Shown here one piece after another: positions 511-38,054 of a stretch of 42,453 nucleotides of DNA. Numbering within the stretch: position 1 is the stretch's first letter; each line of letters starts with the position of its first letter. The notes beneath the pieces were generated by a model that had not been told where the DNA came from, did not search any database, and was given only the letters and a program-made list of their open reading frames with translations. Made by a program: the position numbers and the translations under genes. Location: the IMG/VR virus record IMGVR_UViG_3300009551_000075, positions 1-42,453 of that record; one strand, written 5' to 3'. This DNA is from a virus.

Positions 511-1689
511 TTATCTAGCTACAGTTCTCTTGATTGCACTTACATATGCTGACATTGGTCCAGTCACTTCTTCCACAATTGCTTCTGGAGCAGTGCTGTT
601 ATCAACAACTGTTGATGCAGTCTTGTTCACCTTATTTGAAAAGTATTGTTCACGGATAATGGACAACTTTCCACGGTATTCACTGTCTGTAGTGAATTCA
701 ACACCCTCTGCGAGCGTCTTTAGTTTTTCTGTTTGTGTGGCGGTGAGACCTTCACAAACAGAAGCAATAACTTCTACTTTCTTTGCTTCGTTGATCTTTT
801 TAGTCAACTCTACATTCTTATTTAGTTCTTCGTTAACTTTGCCCTTCAATTCTTCAACTTGAGTAGTTAAAGTTTCAACAACATCAACTTTCTCAGCAGG
901 AATATCAAGATTATGTTCAACGAACAATTCACGTAGACCACCCATGAATTCTTCTACGATTTCAGTACGTAGACCAGATTCAATTGCAACTTCATTGGTC
1001 TTCATCCAAGACTCAACCATGTGGTCTAGATATGCGTCTACTTGACTTTCAATCTCTTCTTTGACTTCATTTACAGATTGTTCTGCTGCTTCTAGAATTT
1101 CTTTTTCTAGTTGTTCTACAACTAAAACAGCGCGTGCAATAACAGCAGATTCAAAAATGGTCTTTGCTTTATTGCGGAATTCTTCTGAAAGTTCAGATCC
1201 AGCAAACATTGCATTTACATCTTCTTCGCAAGAAATTGTCTTCATCTTGTTACGAATCAAATCAAGACGAGCAGTGCGTGCTGCTTCAATTTCTTCTGCG
1301 GTTAATTCAACTTCTTCTGTAGCGACATGTTCTGCGCCACCAGTATTATGATCAGCTTCTTCGGCACCATCCTTCAAAGGAGCTTTACCAGATGGAGTTG
1401 CCATAGTAGGTTGAACTTCTGCAGAAACTTGAGTTTGTGGCTGTGCTGCCTTATCAATTTCTTTTCTTTCTTCTGGACCAACAGCTGGTCCCTTTGGAGG
1501 AGTAGCATGAGATGCATTATCACTTGCATGCTGACCAATTGGATCACCAGCTGGGTTCTCTGTTGTAGAACCACCAAGATTGCGAACTTCACCCTTTTCG
1601 ATAGAGTGCATTGGTTCCTGGCCAGTCTTGCCAGATGCATTCAATACATCAATGGCTGCTTCTGCTAGTGTCTTTCTCTTCGCGGTCAT
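511..1689 (-). CDS. 22: Prohead core scaffolding protein gp22
   Basis: This acidic 392-residue protein lies between protease 21 and capsid 23, the T4 position of the major scaffold protein. The N-terminal 110 residues are Pro/Gly/Gln-rich and probably disordered. The rest (about 125-345) is Glu/Lys/Ala-rich and looks like a long coiled coil, as expected for the scaffold digested by the prohead protease. It is longer than T4 gp22 (269 residues). The first residues contain TLAE|A, a gp21-like cleavage motif. A CTAAATA late box lies about 30 bases upstream, and the RBS is AGGAG. Confidence 0.88.
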   Translation of the reverse strand: MTAKRKTLAEAAIDVLNASGKTGQEPMHSIEKGEVRNLGGSTTENPAGDPIGQHASDNASHATPPKGPAVGPEERKEIDKAAQPQTQVSAEVQPTMATPSGKAPLKDGAEEADHNTGGAEHVATEEVELTAEEIEAARTARLDLIRNKMKTISCEEDVNAMFAGSELSEEFRNKAKTIFESAVIARAVLVVEQLEKEILEAAEQSVNEVKEEIESQVDAYLDHMVESWMKTNEVAIESGLRTEIVEEFMGGLRELFVEHNLDIPAEKVDVVETLTTQVEELKGKVNEELNKNVELTKKINEAKKVEVIASVCEGLTATQTEKLKTLAEGVEFTTDSEYRGKLSIIREQYFSNKVNKTASTVVDNSTAPEAIVEEVTGPMSAYVSAIKRTVAR

Positions 1690-1741: not shown

Positions 1742-2386
1742 TTAGAGCTTCTTCATATAATCTGAAAAAGACTTCAATATAGCTTCTTCTAGATTCTTTT
1801 TCTTAGTCTTTTTTATTTCTTGATAAATTTCATTTACAGAAGCTTCTTGAATAGCACCATTATTCCAAACCCATTCTCTTCCTTCCATCAAACCATTTAC
1901 AAAAGCATCTGGTGCAGATGGATCTGCAACAATATCAGCAGCTGTAGCCAAATGATAATCGTCCTGAACAATATTAGTTCCTTCTACCATTCTCATGGTT
2001 CCAACTCCACGAGAAGATACTCCTAAATTACCACCATCTTCTATTAGAGCTTTAACGATTCTACCATGTGGAGTATCTTGAATTCTAGCCTTTCCAATAT
2101 AATTGTTACCATCTTCCCTAAGACTGATAATACGATGAGAAGCTCTATCTAAGTTAACAGTTGGAGAATCTGGATGACCCAATTCTCCCCATGCACGATT
2201 TTGATTGACATATTCGCGAATGTAACGATTGACTTCTCTTTCTAGAATATTTTTTGGATACTTACGACCATTACGGTTCTTCTTTTCAGATTGTAAGAAG
2301 ATACCTTCAATATACATGTGCTTCTTACCTTCAACCTCTTCAGTAAGATATTGCACATTCTCAATTTGTTCTACGATCAATTTCAT
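1742..2386 (-). CDS. 21: Prohead maturation protease gp21
   Basis: This 214-residue serine protease of the T4 gp21 / herpesvirus-assemblin-like class degrades scaffold and trims head proteins. The visible catalytic candidates are His71 in GELGHPDSP and Ser124/125 in LGVSSRGVG, with the usual spacing, and the family N-terminal stretch KKNRNGRKYPKNILEREV is present. It sits directly upstream of gene 22, as in T4. The C-terminus is Lys-rich and may be trimmed by self-cleavage, which is inference. A terminator hairpin at 2409-2432 lies just upstream of the ATG, so it may be read from a read-through transcript or its own start. Confidence 0.93.
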   Translation of the reverse strand: MKLIVEQIENVQYLTEEVEGKKHMYIEGIFLQSEKKNRNGRKYPKNILEREVNRYIREYVNQNRAWGELGHPDSPTVNLDRASHRIISLREDGNNYIGKARIQDTPHGRIVKALIEDGGNLGVSSRGVGTMRMVEGTNIVQDDYHLATAADIVADPSAPDAFVNGLMEGREWVWNNGAIQEASVNEIYQEIKKTKKKNLEEAILKSFSDYMKKL

Positions 2387-3381: not shown

Positions 3382-4155
3382 CTATTTCTTCTTTGCAACA
3401 TGTTGCATTGCGAATTTAGCAACTTTCTCCAAACCTCTTGGAGATGAATTAATCAATGCAGACAATTTAGATTGATTTGAAGAATTAACCTTCTTGTGAA
3501 GATCTAAAATTGCTTTAGCAGTTACAGGATGTACTCTTACTGAACCACCATTGCGGAAAATAACACGATCTTCTTTGCCAGCATTCATAATTCTATTTAT
3601 GTGATGCATAGCCGACTCATTAACACCACCAGAAGCAGTGTCAGTGATTCGGCCATCTGGTTGTAGATATTTGCCGCAATCACATTTTGCTTCGCCACCA
3701 AGATAAGTAAATTTGTGTTTATGCGATTCAGTAACATATTCAATATCCTCCGTCAATGCCTTATAATCATCATAGACATCGTCAAGGACTTCATCATCCA
3801 TATCTTCAAAATCACCATATTCTTCCATTTCAGAATTCAACCAGTTGTATAAGGCATTTTCTAATTCAGATTTATTAGGCTTATCACAAAGATCCTGATA
3901 AACTGTGTTTAAACAATCAACAATTTCATCTCTACTAAAATCATCACTATCTACGTCTTCTTTGATTGATGTAGAAGTAGCTGGATGTAATGTACCTTGA
4001 GCATCATATGGAATAGAGAATTCAATGTTTAATTGTGTGTTTTTATAAAGAGCAACTCTTTTTCCACCAGCAAAATTTCTAATACCTTCTCGTTTAAGAA
4101 CAATTAACATTGGTGGATCATTAGACTCATTCATCAATTCTTTCAATTTTTTCAT
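3382..4155 (-). CDS. Head-cluster protein with possible protease-cleaved leader (257 aa)
   Basis: The N-terminus MKKLKELMNE|S resembles a short targeting peptide followed by a gp21-type site. The middle (about 65-145) is very acidic. A region around 148-172 has HKHKF...CDCGKY, a possible metal-binding knuckle. The C-terminal 60 residues contain GGSVRVHPVTAKAILDLHKK followed by a Ser/Asn/Gln segment and SPRGLEKVAKFAMQ, a domain I have seen in conserved hypothetical proteins beside phage head genes. Function is not known. It is spaced two bases from the upstream gene. Confidence 0.6.
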   Translation of the reverse strand: MKKLKELMNESNDPPMLIVLKREGIRNFAGGKRVALYKNTQLNIEFSIPYDAQGTLHPATSTSIKEDVDSDDFSRDEIVDCLNTVYQDLCDKPNKSELENALYNWLNSEMEEYGDFEDMDDEVLDDVYDDYKALTEDIEYVTESHKHKFTYLGGEAKCDCGKYLQPDGRITDTASGGVNESAMHHINRIMNAGKEDRVIFRNGGSVRVHPVTAKAILDLHKKVNSSNQSKLSALINSSPRGLEKVAKFAMQHVAKKK

Positions 4156-28059: not shown

Positions 28060-28725
28060 TTATATGGTATCTTCTTCCTTGTCATTACATCCATTGTCAC
28101 AATCTGCTCCTTGATATCTCAAATGATCTCCACATACAACACACTCTGGTTTGTCCAGTTCATTCTCAGATTCTTCAATATCATTCTTCATCTTTGCAAT
28201 AACATTCTTCTTTTTCTTAGGATTCTTTCTGTCTCTCTTGCGGAAGACTCTTCCTTGCTTCCACCCATCTGGAATAGGTTCTCCAGGAATATGTACTTTA
28301 TCAGTGATTCCATTGTTTATCCATGTGGTACCAGACTTTACTGTACTAATCTTTTGTTTTGTTTCTTCTGGTAACACTTTCCCTGTCTGCGCTTCACTCA
28401 TCTTTCTTTTGGTCTCATCGGACAAAGTATAACCAGGCACTACTTCCCATTTAATGTTGTAATAGATCTCAGACTCATACACTTCAGGAGTTAACAATTT
28501 CTCAAGAAAATGTTCAGCTTGTACTTCATCAGGGAATGCATGAATTGCTTGCAGATAAAATGCATCTCTGGAATATTTCTGCAAATCTGACATCAATTCA
28601 TCATTTGTACCAATAAAAGGATCAGAATAATGCTCTGTTCCATAAAATAAGTCATTTGTTTTATGTTTTCCATAAAACATTCTTCTATTCACCACACAAA
28701 ACACTCTAAACACTACATGAAACAT
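28060..28725 (-). CDS. Homing-endonuclease-like protein with NUMOD3 and cysteine tail
   Basis: The N-terminal 90 residues (FRVFCVVNRRMFYGKHKTND ... ESEIYYNIK) resemble the degenerate GIY-YIG type found in phage mobile genes, in which Y-x-G-K-H-K-T-N-D follows the first strand. Then come two NUMOD3-like DNA-binding motifs (LSDETKRKMSEAQTGK and LPEETKQKISTVKSG), a WINNGITDKVHIPGEPIPDG stretch and a basic segment. The C-terminus has CVVCGDHLRYQGADCDNGC, a likely zinc knuckle. It would nick or cut DNA and spread itself into phages lacking it. Activity is uncertain because key residues are altered. Confidence 0.68.
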   Translation of the reverse strand: MFHVVFRVFCVVNRRMFYGKHKTNDLFYGTEHYSDPFIGTNDELMSDLQKYSRDAFYLQAIHAFPDEVQAEHFLEKLLTPEVYESEIYYNIKWEVVPGYTLSDETKRKMSEAQTGKVLPEETKQKISTVKSGTTWINNGITDKVHIPGEPIPDGWKQGRVFRKRDRKNPKKKKNVIAKMKNDIEESENELDKPECVVCGDHLRYQGADCDNGCNDKEEDTI

Positions 28726-29360: not shown

Positions 29361-29594
29361 TTAGAACACTTTCACTGCACGGAAGATGGGATCATTTGAT
29401 TCAACTCCCATTAGAGAACTGATGGTCTTGCCATAGGTTCTAGCAGGAGTAACAATCACAGCATATTGTTCTAGAATGTCTTTGGCCTGGATTTCTGTGA
29501 TAATTTTATCTCTTTTTAAGACTTCTACTAAACATTGAATGCCGAGATTGACATTTTGAGACAAATCTTCATTAGTTAAAGTATACACTTTCAT
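29361..29594 (-). CDS. Hypothetical protein (77 aa)
   Basis: A soluble alpha/beta protein (LGIQCLVEVLKRDKIITEIQ; AVIVTPARTYGKTISSLMGV). AAGGAGAAG lies just upstream, and the ATG overlaps the stop of the 2H phosphoesterase frame (ATGA). Function not recognised. Confidence 0.65.
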   Translation of the reverse strand: MKVYTLTNEDLSQNVNLGIQCLVEVLKRDKIITEIQAKDILEQYAVIVTPARTYGKTISSLMGVESNDPIFRAVKVF

Positions 29595-30097
29595 AGTTCT
29601 TCTCCTTCTAGAATCACATATCCTGCATAGTAAAACTCTAGTGTTAGAGTCTCTCTGGAGAGTTGTTTGTTCAACAGATTAACCATAGAGAGATACGATT
29701 CCCTATCGGGAACGGGATGCACCAGAGTCACATGAGGTTTATACTCAGGAAAAGTCGGAACAATGCCTGCTGTTTGAAATCTTTGATTTAGTTTCTGTAG
29801 ATCTTCTGAAATCAGTTTCAATACAATATAACCTTACTGATCATGTCCTGGCCAGAATTCTAGATTGATCCCTTGGGCCAGGAATCTTTGATCTTTGGGC
29901 ACAAAAGGTAGATCTACATTATTAGCAGGAGTCTTAGAATAGATCAAAGTACAATGTGGGTCAGACTGTAGTGTTCCTAGATCCTTAAAGAACTCATTTA
30001 ATACTAGAGTAGACTCTAAGGTAGGAGTCATCCTGGCAAATAGACCATGAGGAGCATCAATCTTGGCTTCTGAAAGAAATTGTTTAAAGGTTTTCAT
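29591..30097 (-). pseudogene. 2H phosphoesterase-like gene split by an in-frame TAA, with capsid-targeting-like leader
   Basis: The first half (MKTFKQFLSEAKIDAPHGLF to LEFWPGHDQ) has the motif DPHCTLIYSK; the second half has PEYKPHVTLVHPV. Together they give the two H-x-T motifs and length of a LigT/2H phosphoesterase. A single TAA (29836-29834) separates them, and the reading frame continues without shift as GYIVLKLISEDLQKLNQRF. The second half has no ATG, only a TTG at 29821. MKTFKQFLSE|A resembles capsid-targeting peptides of T4 internal proteins. The 2H fold includes T4 Acb1, which degrades CBASS cyclic nucleotides, but a substrate cannot be read from the sequence. Confidence 0.72.
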
Positions 30098-32746: not shown

Positions 32747-32750
32747 TTAT
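32744..32750 (-). promoter_or_regulatory. Late box ATAAATA overlapping the terminase stop
   Basis: The sequence TTTAAATAAATATG combines the terminase TAA with a late-like ATAAATA. It could drive the gp17 tail frame or gene 32504, in parallel with the overlaps at genes 15 and 16. Confidence 0.5.
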
Positions 32751-34273
32751 TTAAAGACTGGTTGAGCAGATAACCAAGCAAACAACCACAGTGTAGAGGT
32801 AGTATCATCATGATATCCTTCTTCAGCTTGATATTGTTTAGTTTTACTTAAAACAAAGGTAGAAAGCTCTGATACAATATCAAAATCATTTAAAATGATT
32901 TGATCATTTTCTATTAGAGTCTTGAGCTTAACACATCCTTGTGTTTTGACCTTTTTAGTAGTTTTCACGCCAGGAATTTTTGCCTTAGAAGCTTGAGTTA
33001 CTGTAACTTCTTGCAATTCACCTGTCATAGAGAAAAAGCAATTCTCATATTCTAAATCACTAATCAATTGATGTAGAACTGTTCCGCCAATGTCATTGTT
33101 TTCTATAATTACATATGCATTGTTATAATGTTGTGCTGCCAGATAGATATAATTAGCAAAAATAGTATCATCTACAGTATTGTCTCTAAATTTAGCCGCT
33201 ACTCTCCAAGGTGCTGTAGTAACATCAAAAATTGTGAATGATGAATAGTCTAATCCTTTACCTTGAGATGGATCACCAGATAGGACATAAGAATGATCTT
33301 TAAGAGGTTCTTCGTAGATAGACATTCTATCATCAAAGAGCATCTTTGAAGGTGAAATGAATGCCAATTCTCTAAGTTTCTTACCACTGATCAATGTATT
33401 GCTAGATCCTAGGAATTCGCATAAGACTTCTTGGTTGAACTTACGTTCCCCTAAGATCTTCAATTGTTGATCTGCCCAGGCCTGATCACGACCAGGAACA
33501 TCTTGCCATCTTGCTTCAATAGCCTTAAAACTATTCCAATTCTTAGGATCTTTTTTCTCCTTCATCGCATCTTCCCAGAATTTGTAAAATAGATTTAGTC
33601 CATTAGGGGTAGATGTCATAATGATCTTAGAAGATTTACCAGAAGAGATAGTTGGGAACACGGATGTGAAGAAATCTTCTGCAATATTACCGGGTACGTG
33701 AGCAAATTCATCCAGATATAAGAAGTTCAATGTGAATCCACGGATTGCTCCTGAAGAGGTAGCTTCACAAAGAATTCTGCAACCATTTTCAAGAGTAATG
33801 GATGATTTATTCCATTCTTCAACACCTTGTTGCATGAATAAAGGTAGGTGTTGATAAGCAATCTGAATACGATTTAGAATTTCATTAGCAGTCTTTTCTT
33901 TTTGAGCCAAGATACCTACATTTTTATGTTCTTGGAATAAAACATAGTGTAGAATATATCCTACAGTGATGGTAGTTTTTCCCGCTTGTCTGGGGCATCG
34001 AAAGATAACGAAACGATTATTATGATAAGTTTCAATAACTTCCTTTTGAAAATCCCAAAGTTTAATATCTGTTAGACCAGCATCTAGTGTAATGACTTTG
34101 ACATAGTGTTCAATAAAATATGTGGGATCTGCTTGACATAACATATATTCCTTGACTTGCTCATTAGTCCAAGGAACCTTTACTCCGACTTTCTTAAGTC
34201 TAGGATTATTCATGAAGGCATATGGATTTTCCTTTTCTTTCTGCCTTACTTGTTTTGCTTTCTTATGTGACAT
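32747..34273 (-). CDS. 17: Terminase large subunit gp17 (508 aa before the in-frame TAA)
   Basis: The ATPase-nuclease motor that packages DNA. ATPase motifs are Walker A RCPRQAGKTT (92-101), Walker B LYLDE (185-189) and coupling motif MTSTPNG (219-225). The nuclease domain has LSGDPSQGKGLDYSSF (331-346), VIIENNDIGG (388-397) and GYHDD near 488. T4 gp17 has 610 residues; here the frame ends at FK followed by TAA, with a further 65 codons in the same frame. A homing endonuclease gene ends on its ATG (TAATG). Confidence 0.95.
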   Translation of the reverse strand: MSHKKAKQVRQKEKENPYAFMNNPRLKKVGVKVPWTNEQVKEYMLCQADPTYFIEHYVKVITLDAGLTDIKLWDFQKEVIETYHNNRFVIFRCPRQAGKTTITVGYILHYVLFQEHKNVGILAQKEKTANEILNRIQIAYQHLPLFMQQGVEEWNKSSITLENGCRILCEATSSGAIRGFTLNFLYLDEFAHVPGNIAEDFFTSVFPTISSGKSSKIIMTSTPNGLNLFYKFWEDAMKEKKDPKNWNSFKAIEARWQDVPGRDQAWADQQLKILGERKFNQEVLCEFLGSSNTLISGKKLRELAFISPSKMLFDDRMSIYEEPLKDHSYVLSGDPSQGKGLDYSSFTIFDVTTAPWRVAAKFRDNTVDDTIFANYIYLAAQHYNNAYVIIENNDIGGTVLHQLISDLEYENCFFSMTGELQEVTVTQASKAKIPGVKTTKKVKTQGCVKLKTLIENDQIILNDFDIVSELSTFVLSKTKQYQAEEGYHDDTTSTLWLFAWLSAQPVFK

Positions 34274-34839
34274 TAATTCTTTTTCTTTTGATTAATCAAT
34301 AACATTTGATTTCTTCTTCTAATTCTATCTTCTTCTGTTATTGTAACTTTCAATCCTTTCAAACCTTTATTCCAGGTTTGCATTCCCTTTAATCCTATGT
34401 TCCAAGGTTTACTACCCTTCTTAAATTTTGTCTTTTTACTTCCTTCTGGAAAAAGTCTACCCAATTTGAATCCTTGAGATGGAATTCCTTTAAACATTTT
34501 CTCTTCTGTACCGTTATTATACCATTTTGATTTTTCGTTTGGATTGTGATGTTCTCCACCATATGTAATATTGTAACCATTATTAACAGAATCAAAATGT
34601 TTAATGAAATATTCTTCCATAATATTTAGACAATGATCCTTATCTTTAGAAGTGTAAATTTCCTCTATTCTAAATGATTCTTTACCATGTTTTCTAATAG
34701 CATTATGAATCTTCAGGTTAGAACCATTATTGGTATCAGAGATATGACCATACCATCTATCTTTAATATTTTGTATAGTAAAACCTATGTAAATCTTGTT
34801 ATTTTTTATATTCGTAATTTTATAGATTCTAGATAACAT
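34273..34839 (-). CDS. GIY-YIG homing endonuclease
   Basis: The N-terminal 90 residues are a GIY-YIG nuclease: SRIYKITNIKNNKIYIGFT (3-21), RWYGH (28-32), IRKHGKESFRIEEIY, the catalytic-type Glu in MEEYFIKHF and NNGYNITYGGE. The remainder has the WYNNGTEEKMFKGIPSQGFK motif and two NUMOD3-like repeats (GSKPWNIGLKG and QTWNKGLKG). Free-standing enzymes of this kind insert beside conserved phage genes. It lies between genes 16 and 17, and its stop overlaps the terminase start. ATG 34839 is preferred to the TTG at 34842. Confidence 0.88.
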   Translation of the reverse strand: MLSRIYKITNIKNNKIYIGFTIQNIKDRWYGHISDTNNGSNLKIHNAIRKHGKESFRIEEIYTSKDKDHCLNIMEEYFIKHFDSVNNGYNITYGGEHHNPNEKSKWYNNGTEEKMFKGIPSQGFKLGRLFPEGSKKTKFKKGSKPWNIGLKGMQTWNKGLKGLKVTITEEDRIRRRNQMLLINQKKKN

Positions 34840-34866
34840 CAATTACATCCTGCTGCTTATGGGATG

Positions 34867-34873
34867 TATTTAG
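34867..34873 (-). promoter_or_regulatory. Late promoter box CTAAATA, overlapping the gene 16 stop
   Basis: The TAA stop of gene 16 (AACTAAATA) is part of the box. It lies 28 bases before the endonuclease ATG and probably serves the endonuclease-terminase unit. Confidence 0.65.
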
Positions 34874-35295
34874 TTTTTCTTCTTGGTGAGTTGTAATAAT
34901 TCAGTCGTTGTTCCGACAAATATTGCATTTGATACAGTAATTGGAGAAGTTGATCCCTCATCCGAAGGATGATCTTCTAAAGATTTAACGTTTTTATGTA
35001 TAATCAAAATCTTATCATTGACTTCTGATAAATTTTTAATAAGTGTTGCTAATACTTCGTAAGAACGAGGATGTTGACTTTGACGAGCTATTTCTGATAA
35101 TTCATCTAAAGCAGCAGCACCTTTAGTTAATAAATCATAAAGATTTTGTCTAGCAAATTCATAATCATTTTGTAATTGATTATTTGAAGAATTAGCAGCG
35201 GTTATGGCTCTAGTTTGAGCAGAAGTAATTTCTGTATTTGTTTGTTTTTCTTCGGAAACAATTCCTAACGCAGTTCCAATTGGGTCTTCAGACAT
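34870..35295 (-). CDS. 16: Terminase small subunit gp16
   Basis: The 141-residue protein matches T4 gp16 (164 residues) in layout: YEFARQNLYDLLTKGAAALD and then HPRSYEVLATLIKNLSEVND and KILIIHKNVKSLED form the central helical hairpin that makes the ring. A C-terminal SNAIFVGTTTELLQL matches the T4 gp16 tail. It recognises DNA and regulates gp17. The order 15-16-17 is that of T4, apart from the inserted endonuclease. Confidence 0.85.
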   Translation of the reverse strand: MSEDPIGTALGIVSEEKQTNTEITSAQTRAITAANSSNNQLQNDYEFARQNLYDLLTKGAAALDELSEIARQSQHPRSYEVLATLIKNLSEVNDKILIIHKNVKSLEDHPSDEGSTSPITVSNAIFVGTTTELLQLTKKKN

Positions 35296-35325
35296 AATGT
35301 TCTCAAAAATTCAATTATAATCATG

Positions 35326-35332
35326 TATTTAG
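35326..35332 (-). promoter_or_regulatory. Late promoter box CTAAATA, overlapping the gene 15 stop
   Basis: AACTAAATA contains the TAA of gene 15. It lies about 31 bases before the gene 16 ATG. Confidence 0.65.
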
Positions 35333-36099
35333 TTTGGACCTGTTTCCGTTATGGTAGTTGTATAACGTAGATTTGCATCTGTACTATTGGCTGACAACGG
35401 ATTTGGAACAACTTCAATGGTAGCATTCACATGAGATGTATCAAAATTACGTAAGTTAACAATAACATCCTTGATAATAGGAGCAGCGAAATCTGTAGGA
35501 CCATATAGAAGAATTTGAGCAGTAAATGTCAAAGTCCAAGTGATGAAACGAACATCTCCACCAGCTCCTTCATATTTGTTAGAGAATTGAATATCTTTCA
35601 TTGTAAAAGGAAGATCATTTACCACTGCATACCCATTGATGGTTAGATATTTAATAGAAACTGTATAATCGGGAGTAAAGAATGGTAGGATTTGTTCTAT
35701 AATTTGTAGACCATCTTCCATGTTTCTTACATAGATACTCAATGCGATATCTACTTCTGCTGGAACACCAAACTTGAACTGACTTGCTGTATTTCCAGAT
35801 TGGCTTACGGAATTATTAATGAATCCCGTTTGTTGTCTTTCTAGATCTTGTCTTATTCCTACCATTTCATAAGACATTGTAGGAAGAGAAATTTGGATCC
35901 CTTTAGTCAAATCAGGATCTGCTTCTAGACGAGCCAACCAAGTCTCTTTTCCACCATACTCCAGTGGACATGTTATCCTACCCAATTCAGCACGAGTATC
36001 TTTGTGGTATTTGATTACTTCTATGTCTTTGAATATTGCACCAAAGGCAAGAAGAACATTTCTGACAGTAGAATAGTAAAAGGGTTTATAACCAAGCAT
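35329..36099 (-). CDS. 15: Tail sheath stabiliser and completion protein gp15
   Basis: The protein caps the tail and joins it to the head. It matches T4 gp15 in length (256 against 272 residues), in the N-terminal FYYSTVRNVLLAFGAIFKDI, in RITCPLEYGGKETWLARLEA, in the marker YVRNMEDGLQIIEQILPFFT and in the ITWTLTFTAQILLYGP strand. It ends two bases beyond the late box serving gene 16. Confidence 0.9.
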   Translation of the reverse strand: MLGYKPFYYSTVRNVLLAFGAIFKDIEVIKYHKDTRAELGRITCPLEYGGKETWLARLEADPDLTKGIQISLPTMSYEMVGIRQDLERQQTGFINNSVSQSGNTASQFKFGVPAEVDIALSIYVRNMEDGLQIIEQILPFFTPDYTVSIKYLTINGYAVVNDLPFTMKDIQFSNKYEGAGGDVRFITWTLTFTAQILLYGPTDFAAPIIKDVIVNLRNFDTSHVNATIEVVPNPLSANSTDANLRYTTTITETGPN

Positions 36100-36101
36100 A
36101 A

Positions 36102-36968
36102 TTATACCATAGGATTTCCGCTAGCATTAGATTCTGTAAAATCCAGAACTGTATTGGCTTCAATTCTAATCTCTAAGTTGTTTTCCAACGCATTGTTAAT
36201 ATTGTTCTGAATTTCTAGATTATTTAACGTGAAAGAAGCATTAGAGTTTACGCCAATTATTGATGTATTGACAGCAAACACACCAATGATGTTCTTTAAG
36301 ACTAATACATTCGTCACAGCATTCCAAGAAACAACATCTGCTTTAGCTGTAGCAGAAGATACATTTGCTCCTTGATAGACAGGTTCATCAATATTGTAAC
36401 TTCCTGTACCAGATCCCATTGAAGCAGCATAGGCAATCTTGATGGTATTTACTTTCTCATCTATTTCAGGGATTCCTGAATCAATATCTTCGTTGTTGTA
36501 GCGGAACTCTTCACACACCAAACTGTAGCCATAGAATGTATTATTACCGAAGGCATAGAAAAATTTATCTTGATTGACGTATTTAATTTCATAAAGAGCC
36601 TTGAAATTCTTCATCCATAACAAATCTCCTTCCCTTGGTCTAGATCCTATTGCTCCTTGTGTTTGTTTATTGAAAGATTCTGCAGACATTAGTAGTCTAA
36701 CTTGCTTACTGATAGTTAGACCAAATTTCGTAAAGAGATCTCCACCATCAAAGGTTTCTGTATTTTCAATGTATACTTCAATAGAATAAGCTGCAGTAAA
36801 TTTTTTGGTAGGATCATCACCAAAGATTAAATCTATAGAAGAATCAGTATCTCTAGGAATATATTGTGTATCTATGCCAAATTGTTGAACAACTTCATTG
36901 ATAAGATCTTGATAAAGACGTTGTTCTCCTGTCTCACTATAAACATCAAAGAATTTATTAGTAGGCAT
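36102..36968 (-). CDS. 14: Neck protein gp14
   Basis: The N-terminal segment GEQRLYQDLINEVVQQFGID, followed by QYIPRDTDSSIDLIFGDDP, is typical of gp14 of T4-like phages, as is SIEVYIENTETFDGG. It is 288 residues (256 in T4), with an Asn-rich C-terminus. It forms the neck with gp13. It lies between genes 13 and 15 as in T4, with one extra small gene. Confidence 0.85.
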   Translation of the reverse strand: MPTNKFFDVYSETGEQRLYQDLINEVVQQFGIDTQYIPRDTDSSIDLIFGDDPTKKFTAAYSIEVYIENTETFDGGDLFTKFGLTISKQVRLLMSAESFNKQTQGAIGSRPREGDLLWMKNFKALYEIKYVNQDKFFYAFGNNTFYGYSLVCEEFRYNNEDIDSGIPEIDEKVNTIKIAYAASMGSGTGSYNIDEPVYQGANVSSATAKADVVSWNAVTNVLVLKNIIGVFAVNTSIIGVNSNASFTLNNLEIQNNINNALENNLEIRIEANTVLDFTESNASGNPMV

Positions 36969-37298
36969 TTAACGTGTAACTCCAGGAGACAAAGAAATGA
37001 TCCCTTCTAGAATCCTTGTTACATTATTAGATGAATCTGTCATCTTAACATCATAGACATACTTTTGTGCTGATAGATTAGAAGTTGCAGCAGCATTCAA
37101 AGAAAGAACAACATTACCTCGTGCTGAATTAGCAATAGTGATGGTAAGGTTAGCATCTACATTAGCAGAGGCATAGGATTTGGAGAGAGATCCGGAGAAA
37201 GAATATCCTGCTACATTTATGGGAGCAGAATTGGCATACTTCAAATCTAGATTATAAGACCAATCAGCTCTTTGATTTACAAATAATTCTCTGTACAT
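36969..37298 (-). CDS. Small virion protein between genes 13 and 14 (109 aa)
   Basis: A beta-rich protein with the pattern NLDLKYANSAPINVAGYSFS near the start and YVYDVKMTDSSNNVTRILEG then IISLSPGVTR at the end. Proteins with this end (VTR-x-x-EG-x-x-x-x-P-x-VT) are common beside neck genes in T4-like marine phages and resemble an Ig-like module. Its exact place in the virion is unknown. It abuts the starts and stops of its neighbours. Confidence 0.65.
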   Translation of the reverse strand: MYRELFVNQRADWSYNLDLKYANSAPINVAGYSFSGSLSKSYASANVDANLTITIANSARGNVVLSLNAAATSNLSAQKYVYDVKMTDSSNNVTRILEGIISLSPGVTR

Positions 37299-37301
37299 GG
37301 T

Positions 37302-38054
37302 TTAACCTACAATGAATTCAGGAGGAGCTTCAAATTCATCACGTAGTTGTTTTTCTAATCTTAACTTATCTTCATATGCTTCATTATAGATTTGTTGACC
37401 ATTTAATATCATTCCACCAGGAAGAGTTACAGAATTGAACTTTTTCAAATTTTGACCCCATTGTTCTTTAAACAATGCAGTCGTATACTCAGTTAACCAT
37501 CTATCTCCCCAAAACTTAGAGGTATTGTCTAGAGCTCTATACAATTCCACAATGAGATATTGTCCTGGAGTAAAACGTGTATTCCAAGCGGCATCAATAT
37601 AAAGAATGTTAGTGTATCTGTTGTAGCGAATAGGAATTTCACCAGTAAACAACATTTCAAGCATGCGCAGATGTTCATTAGCTAATTCAAAGTAGACATA
37701 ATCACCAGCAGTATAATCATATAATTCATTTAGACGGATCTGGTAATTAATATCAAACATGTTGAAACCACCAGATCCTGCTGAATTGGTTTGTGAAGAA
37801 GCAAGAGTAAAGATACGAGTAACACCAATTACGTCATTAGCCATTTGAATATAATTATTAGCCATATCACCAGCAGTAATTTGATGAGATGTATACCACT
37901 TTTCTGATCCATCATAATGGAAAATCTGAAATCTTTGAATGGCTTCATCTATTCTATCTTCCAATTGTTCATCATCTACATTGATATTGATGACAGGAGC
38001 ACCCAATTTACGTAGACAATATGTTTTTAGAGTTGCTCTATCTGATGGAATCAT
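37302..38054 (-). CDS. 13: Neck protein gp13
   Basis: The N-terminus LKTYCLRKLGAPVININVDD, followed by QLEDRIDEAIQRFQIFHYDG, is characteristic of gp13 of T4-like phages. It is 250 residues (309 in T4). With gp14 it completes the head so that tails can attach. It is preceded by a late box at 38081-38087 and a GAGAA RBS. Confidence 0.9.
   Translation of the reverse strand: MIPSDRATLKTYCLRKLGAPVININVDDEQLEDRIDEAIQRFQIFHYDGSEKWYTSHQITAGDMANNYIQMANDVIGVTRIFTLASSQTNSAGSGGFNMFDINYQIRLNELYDYTAGDYVYFELANEHLRMLEMLFTGEIPIRYNRYTNILYIDAAWNTRFTPGQYLIVELYRALDNTSKFWGDRWLTEYTTALFKEQWGQNLKKFNSVTLPGGMILNGQQIYNEAYEDKLRLEKQLRDEFEAPPEFIVG

Follow-up and report, generated by a model that had tools for sequence, protein, structure and literature searches.

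A predicted 2H phosphoesterase of the Acb1 family, encoded by a T4-like phage, was found to begin with a leader that resembles the capsid-targeting sequences of T4 internal proteins, and its gene was found to be interrupted by a single in-frame TAA. The gene lies in an IMG/VR virus record of 42,453 bases, the whole of which was analysed and is referred to here as the window. On balance, it is probable that an Acb1-type 2H phosphoesterase has gained a T4-type capsid-targeting sequence, that the intact form of the enzyme would be packaged in the head, injected, and directed against CBASS, and that the copy in the window is an interrupted one.

By gene content, the window is a fragment of a T4-like myovirus. 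One end carries the genes for the portal, a gp21-type protease, the scaffold, the start of the major capsid protein, the tail tube and the sheath, and the other end carries terminase, neck and tail genes. A megablast search with the part of the window from 20000 to 42453 revealed no close DNA relatives among deposited phages, and Rfam and tRNA scans found nothing. A separate IMG/VR contig (L006) matches 4,590 bases of the window (32804-37393) without a difference, which indicates that this phage is represented by assemblies in more than one record. Two homing-endonuclease-like open reading frames are present on the minus strand, at 34273-34842 and 28060-28725; one of these is wedged between terS and terL, and its end overlaps the start of terL. 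Between 36102 and 41456, also on the minus strand, a run of six genes lies in a single reading frame with TAA stops alone between them, and in most cases the start codon lies 0-3 bases past the preceding TAA.

The 2H gene sits outside the head cluster and runs on the minus strand from 30097 down to 29591, encoding 168 residues with a normal stop at codon 169; the protein begins MKTFKQFLSEAKIDAPHGLF. The leader, MKTFKQFLSE/A, corresponds to residues 1-11 (30065-30097), and is followed by a first HxT motif, HCT (residues 48-50; 29948-29956), and a second, HVT (residues 122-124; 29726-29734), all on the same strand. In a 49-row alignment, H48, T50 and H122 are invariant and T124 is nearly so. The in-frame TAA (29834-29836) occupies codon 88, where the alignment column is variable and non-catalytic. 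Translation confirmed the coordinates and motifs given for this gene in the original prediction, which had left the strand unstated, and translation and a six-frame search agreed that both HxT motifs are intact, with one TAA between them in a frame that is otherwise open.

When X was substituted for the stop, the protein matched the Pfam Acb1 model (PF23474) at 51.8 bits (E 9.7e-14), against a cut-off of 27, and a six-frame search recovered the match at 51.5 bits with one TAA inside it, whereas the generic 2H Pfam models, LigT models included, stayed below their own cut-offs. PHROG 755 ("RNA ligase") also matched (4e-18), and the sequence matches in the PDB were the Acb1 entries 9q2g and 9q2y. 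The read-through product was modelled in AlphaFold with the TAA taken as Q and the 49-row alignment as input (mean pLDDT 78.7). The best structural matches to this model were the Acb1 structures 9q2y, 9q2g, 7t27 and 7t26 (E 6e-8 to 3e-7), with Usb1 and LigT structures ranking well behind. The 2H fold that had been proposed for this protein is thus upheld, and the family narrowed to Acb1, by the Pfam score above cut-off, the PDB sequence matches, and the predicted structure. The catalytic tetrad (H48, T50, H122, and T124) is kept, and the positions reported to contact the ligand by nucleobase stacking in Acb1 (PMC9117128) appear to hold the aromatic residues F20, W82, and F116. The window gene is best described as an interrupted member of the Acb1 family, encoding a predicted enzyme. 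It shares with T4 gp57B, FBB1 Acb1 (7t26/7t27), and the BCSR5 phosphodiesterase (9q2g/9q2y) the 2H fold, the HxT/HxT tetrad, the PF23474 match, and the aromatic ligand-contact positions, but is about 20-30% identical to them, adds the capsid-targeting-like leader with its predicted cut site, contains an internal stop, and appears to have Phe at the equivalent of Tyr12. PADLOC returned no match.

The first ten residues of T4 IPIII suffice for head entry; in the T4 leader, positions 4 and 7 mediate targeting, positions 8 and 10 are involved in gp21 processing, and the cut falls after L/I-x-E (PMC9026906). The window leader has F4, F7, L8 and E10, followed by A, so that it fits the T4 pattern at each of these positions, and a gp21 cut is predicted after E10. 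With T4 IPI, IPII, IPIII and Alt it shares the 10-residue MKT-aromatic-xx-F-[LI]-x-E pattern, the small residue that follows, and a gp21-type protease in the genome; it differs from them in that the cargo is an Acb1-type enzyme rather than a known internal protein, and in that its packaging is a prediction. A leader profile (PSSM) was built from 37 distinct internal-protein leaders, taken from genes beside acb1 in T4-like phages; in Tequatrovirus DalCa, two of the leader-bearing genes carry an internal head or virion protein annotation. With this profile, which is sharp by design because its training leaders were picked by motif pattern, none of them from the window, MKTFKQFLSEA at 30097(-) scored 22.1 and ranked second among 2,768 possible starts in the window (mean -22.3, s.d. 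6.0). The first and third ranks fell in the head cluster (MESFKEFIAEA at 2925(-), score 22.8, and MKKLKELMNES at 4155(-), score 14.0), and the start ranked fourth, the next outside the head genes, scored only 2.3. No start scoring at least 20 was found in any of 300 random sequences with the dinucleotide frequencies of the window. The leader resemblance is far from chance, and the claim that this N-terminus is a T4-type capsid-targeting sequence holds at the level of sequence.

A matching protease is encoded in the same window: the gp21-type head maturation protease (Peptidase S77; 1742-2386, minus strand) matched PF03420 with an E-value of 1.5e-41. The neighbouring gp22-type head scaffolding protein (511-1689, minus strand) has an N-terminal LAE/A site, and two further head-cluster proteins on this strand begin with the leaders ranked first and third, MESFKEFIAE/A (2650-2925) and MKKLKELMNE/S (3382-4155). 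The former, a very basic protein of 91 residues without a named family, has a near-perfect capsid-targeting leader and is a candidate internal or core protein. It serves as an internal positive control for the tag, and the leader of the 2H protein agrees with it at the specificity positions. Of 8 small head-cluster genes, 5 have an N-terminal [LIM]xE/[AGS] site, against 2 of the 73 open frames elsewhere (p 4e-5), a comparison in which the list of frames includes spurious ones and the motif had been noticed in the cluster before counting.

Among Acb1 genes gathered from phage records and IMG/VR, most, those of the T4 clade included, encode a short N-terminus without the full leader. An unbroken gene with such a leader was found in a minority, environmental contigs among them: in phage phiAS5 (MIRSFSEFITEAA), in phage Mm5 (RFNQFINES; score 10.4), and at loci L113 (MKTVKEFLTEE), L168 (MTPFKTFIEEAN), L191 and L112. 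The original prediction had counted the absence of the leader from all unbroken homologues as evidence against it; several unbroken relatives proved to have one. In Morganella phage Mm5 and Aeromonas phage phiAS5, as in the window, an F-xx-F-[LI]-x-E/[AS] leader precedes the Acb1 fold and gp21 is encoded in the genome, but their genes are unbroken, and their leaders are of other lengths and fall on different branches. A tree built from the fold alone has many weakly supported forks and puts the window on a long branch together with PaBG; on it, seven rows scored above 4 and seven changes were needed to account for them. A family-wide leader was ruled out on this count, and the trait looks sporadic, with a scattered distribution over the branches. 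In sequence, the closest relatives are proteins of phages PaBG and Motura (about 25-31% identity). They are without a T4-type leader; their genomes gave no match to Peptidase S77, and the 2H protein is not mentioned in the part of the PaBG virion list consulted. Several of the homologue scans yielded few loci or none. No relatives of the 2H protein were found in the bacterial genomes scanned, and PF23474 matched, in 41 virus records (39 of them obtained via terminase relatives), only the two included as Acb1 relatives. In T4-like isolates (L110 and L142-L189), acb1 adjoins a cluster of leader-bearing internal-protein genes. Such a position could provide a setting in which recombination captures a leader.

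The in-frame TAA had been left in the original prediction as a lesion, a readthrough site or an error. TAA is the main terminator of this phage, ending 42 of the 66 closed minus-strand open frames of at least 90 codons, and its recoding as a sense codon was ruled out. Across the 2H stop, 71 related stretches align without a break, and no DNA relatives spanning it were found in viral contigs. A recent lesion, or a sequence or assembly error, is most likely, since TAA is an ordinary stop here and the half downstream of it keeps its motifs and conserved residues. Readthrough, or bypass by internal re-initiation at the TTG at 29821, would yield a full-length or two-piece enzyme. It fits the location of the stop between the two HxT halves, the open and conserved downstream half, and a weak AAGG about 10 bases 5' of the TTG, and it recalls the second in-frame TAA, in terL (32747-32749, minus strand). 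That second stop is real: it is spanned by the alignments of 56 loci, and about 60 codons beyond it are conserved in relatives. The terL column is acidic in all relatives tabulated, whereas the 2H column is variable, so that the two stops are unlike in kind; moreover, no stable RNA structure was found 3' of either TAA, and no split relative was seen among the Acb1 genes, which makes such a bypass very improbable. The overlap with contig L006 reaches neither stop. As sequenced, the product would be an 87-residue fragment with one HxT motif rather than a single uninterrupted chain with both, and the window copy is therefore probably inactive.

From the family, the fold, the catalytic motifs, the leader statistics, the protease, and the second head-cluster protein with the same leader, all of them based on the data presented here, we infer how an intact form would be packaged, cleaved and injected, and what its substrate and activity would be. 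Residues 1-10 would guide the protein to the prohead core, and the phage gp21-type protease would cut after Glu10; the mature enzyme would then start at Ala11, seven residues before the fold, and be injected together with the DNA, degrading CBASS-type cyclic di- and trinucleotides from the first moments of infection. Against this explanation stands the lack of the full leader in most Acb1 relatives, which means that packaging is not needed for the function of the family. The location of the gene outside the head cluster and the predicted RNA-repair role of the PaBG/Motura group also count against it. Part of the resemblance could also reflect a native N-terminal helix, since many relatives begin M-K-hydrophobic-x-x-hydrophobic.

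If the whole N-terminus were such a helix, convergent with a capsid-targeting sequence, the enzyme would be made after infection and would not be packaged, as is assumed for T4 Acb1. Many relatives do start M-K-[FLV]-x-x-[FL], T4-clade copies start M-x-F-x-[DE]-F, and the leader is predicted to be helical in the AlphaFold model. A looser half-motif is more frequent in Acb1 proteins (18/61) than in their neighbours (111/647; p 0.02), whereas the strict motif is not enriched (3/61 against 47/647, many of these neighbours being true internal-protein genes). However, a cleavable L/I-x-E site is present in only a few relatives, most of them score about 0 or lower where the window leader reaches 22.1, and at the specificity positions it fits the head-cluster leader of the same phage; a purely native helix seems rather unlikely, though it is a serious rival. 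A further alternative is that the protein repairs RNA or tRNA ends as a 2H phosphodiesterase, acting on 2',3'-cyclic phosphates rather than against CBASS. The PaBG and Motura proteins are annotated "RNA ligase", and a review that gives the Motura protein QDH83605.1 a predicted role in RNA healing places the PaBG/Motura group in predicted RNA end repair (PMC7824862). Nevertheless, the Acb1-specific Pfam model passes where the LigT models fail, the Acb1 enzymes are the best structural matches, well ahead of LigT and Usb1, and the aromatic ligand contacts appear to be kept, all of which renders a repair function improbable.

Characterised Acb1 members destroy bacterial alarm molecules, and CBASS counter-measures have so far been studied as proteins expressed after infection. 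That the window gene specifies an anti-CBASS enzyme packaged beforehand is a well-motivated hypothesis. In the literature searched, no account of an Acb1 packaged in virions was found. T4 internal proteins such as IPI are first-response anti-defence factors that are injected with the DNA (PMC9391042). More tentatively, several T4-like phages may independently have tagged Acb1, such that the enzyme would enter with the DNA and clear CBASS signals before phage expression, with the window gene as one such case, recently broken. A tagged Acb1, if true, would join the injected internal-protein mode of anti-defence with CBASS counter-measures. Intact leader-bearing relatives in the isolated phages phiAS5 and Mm5 make the packaging idea directly testable, and the leader profile could readily be used to search for further packaged cargoes with anti-defence roles.
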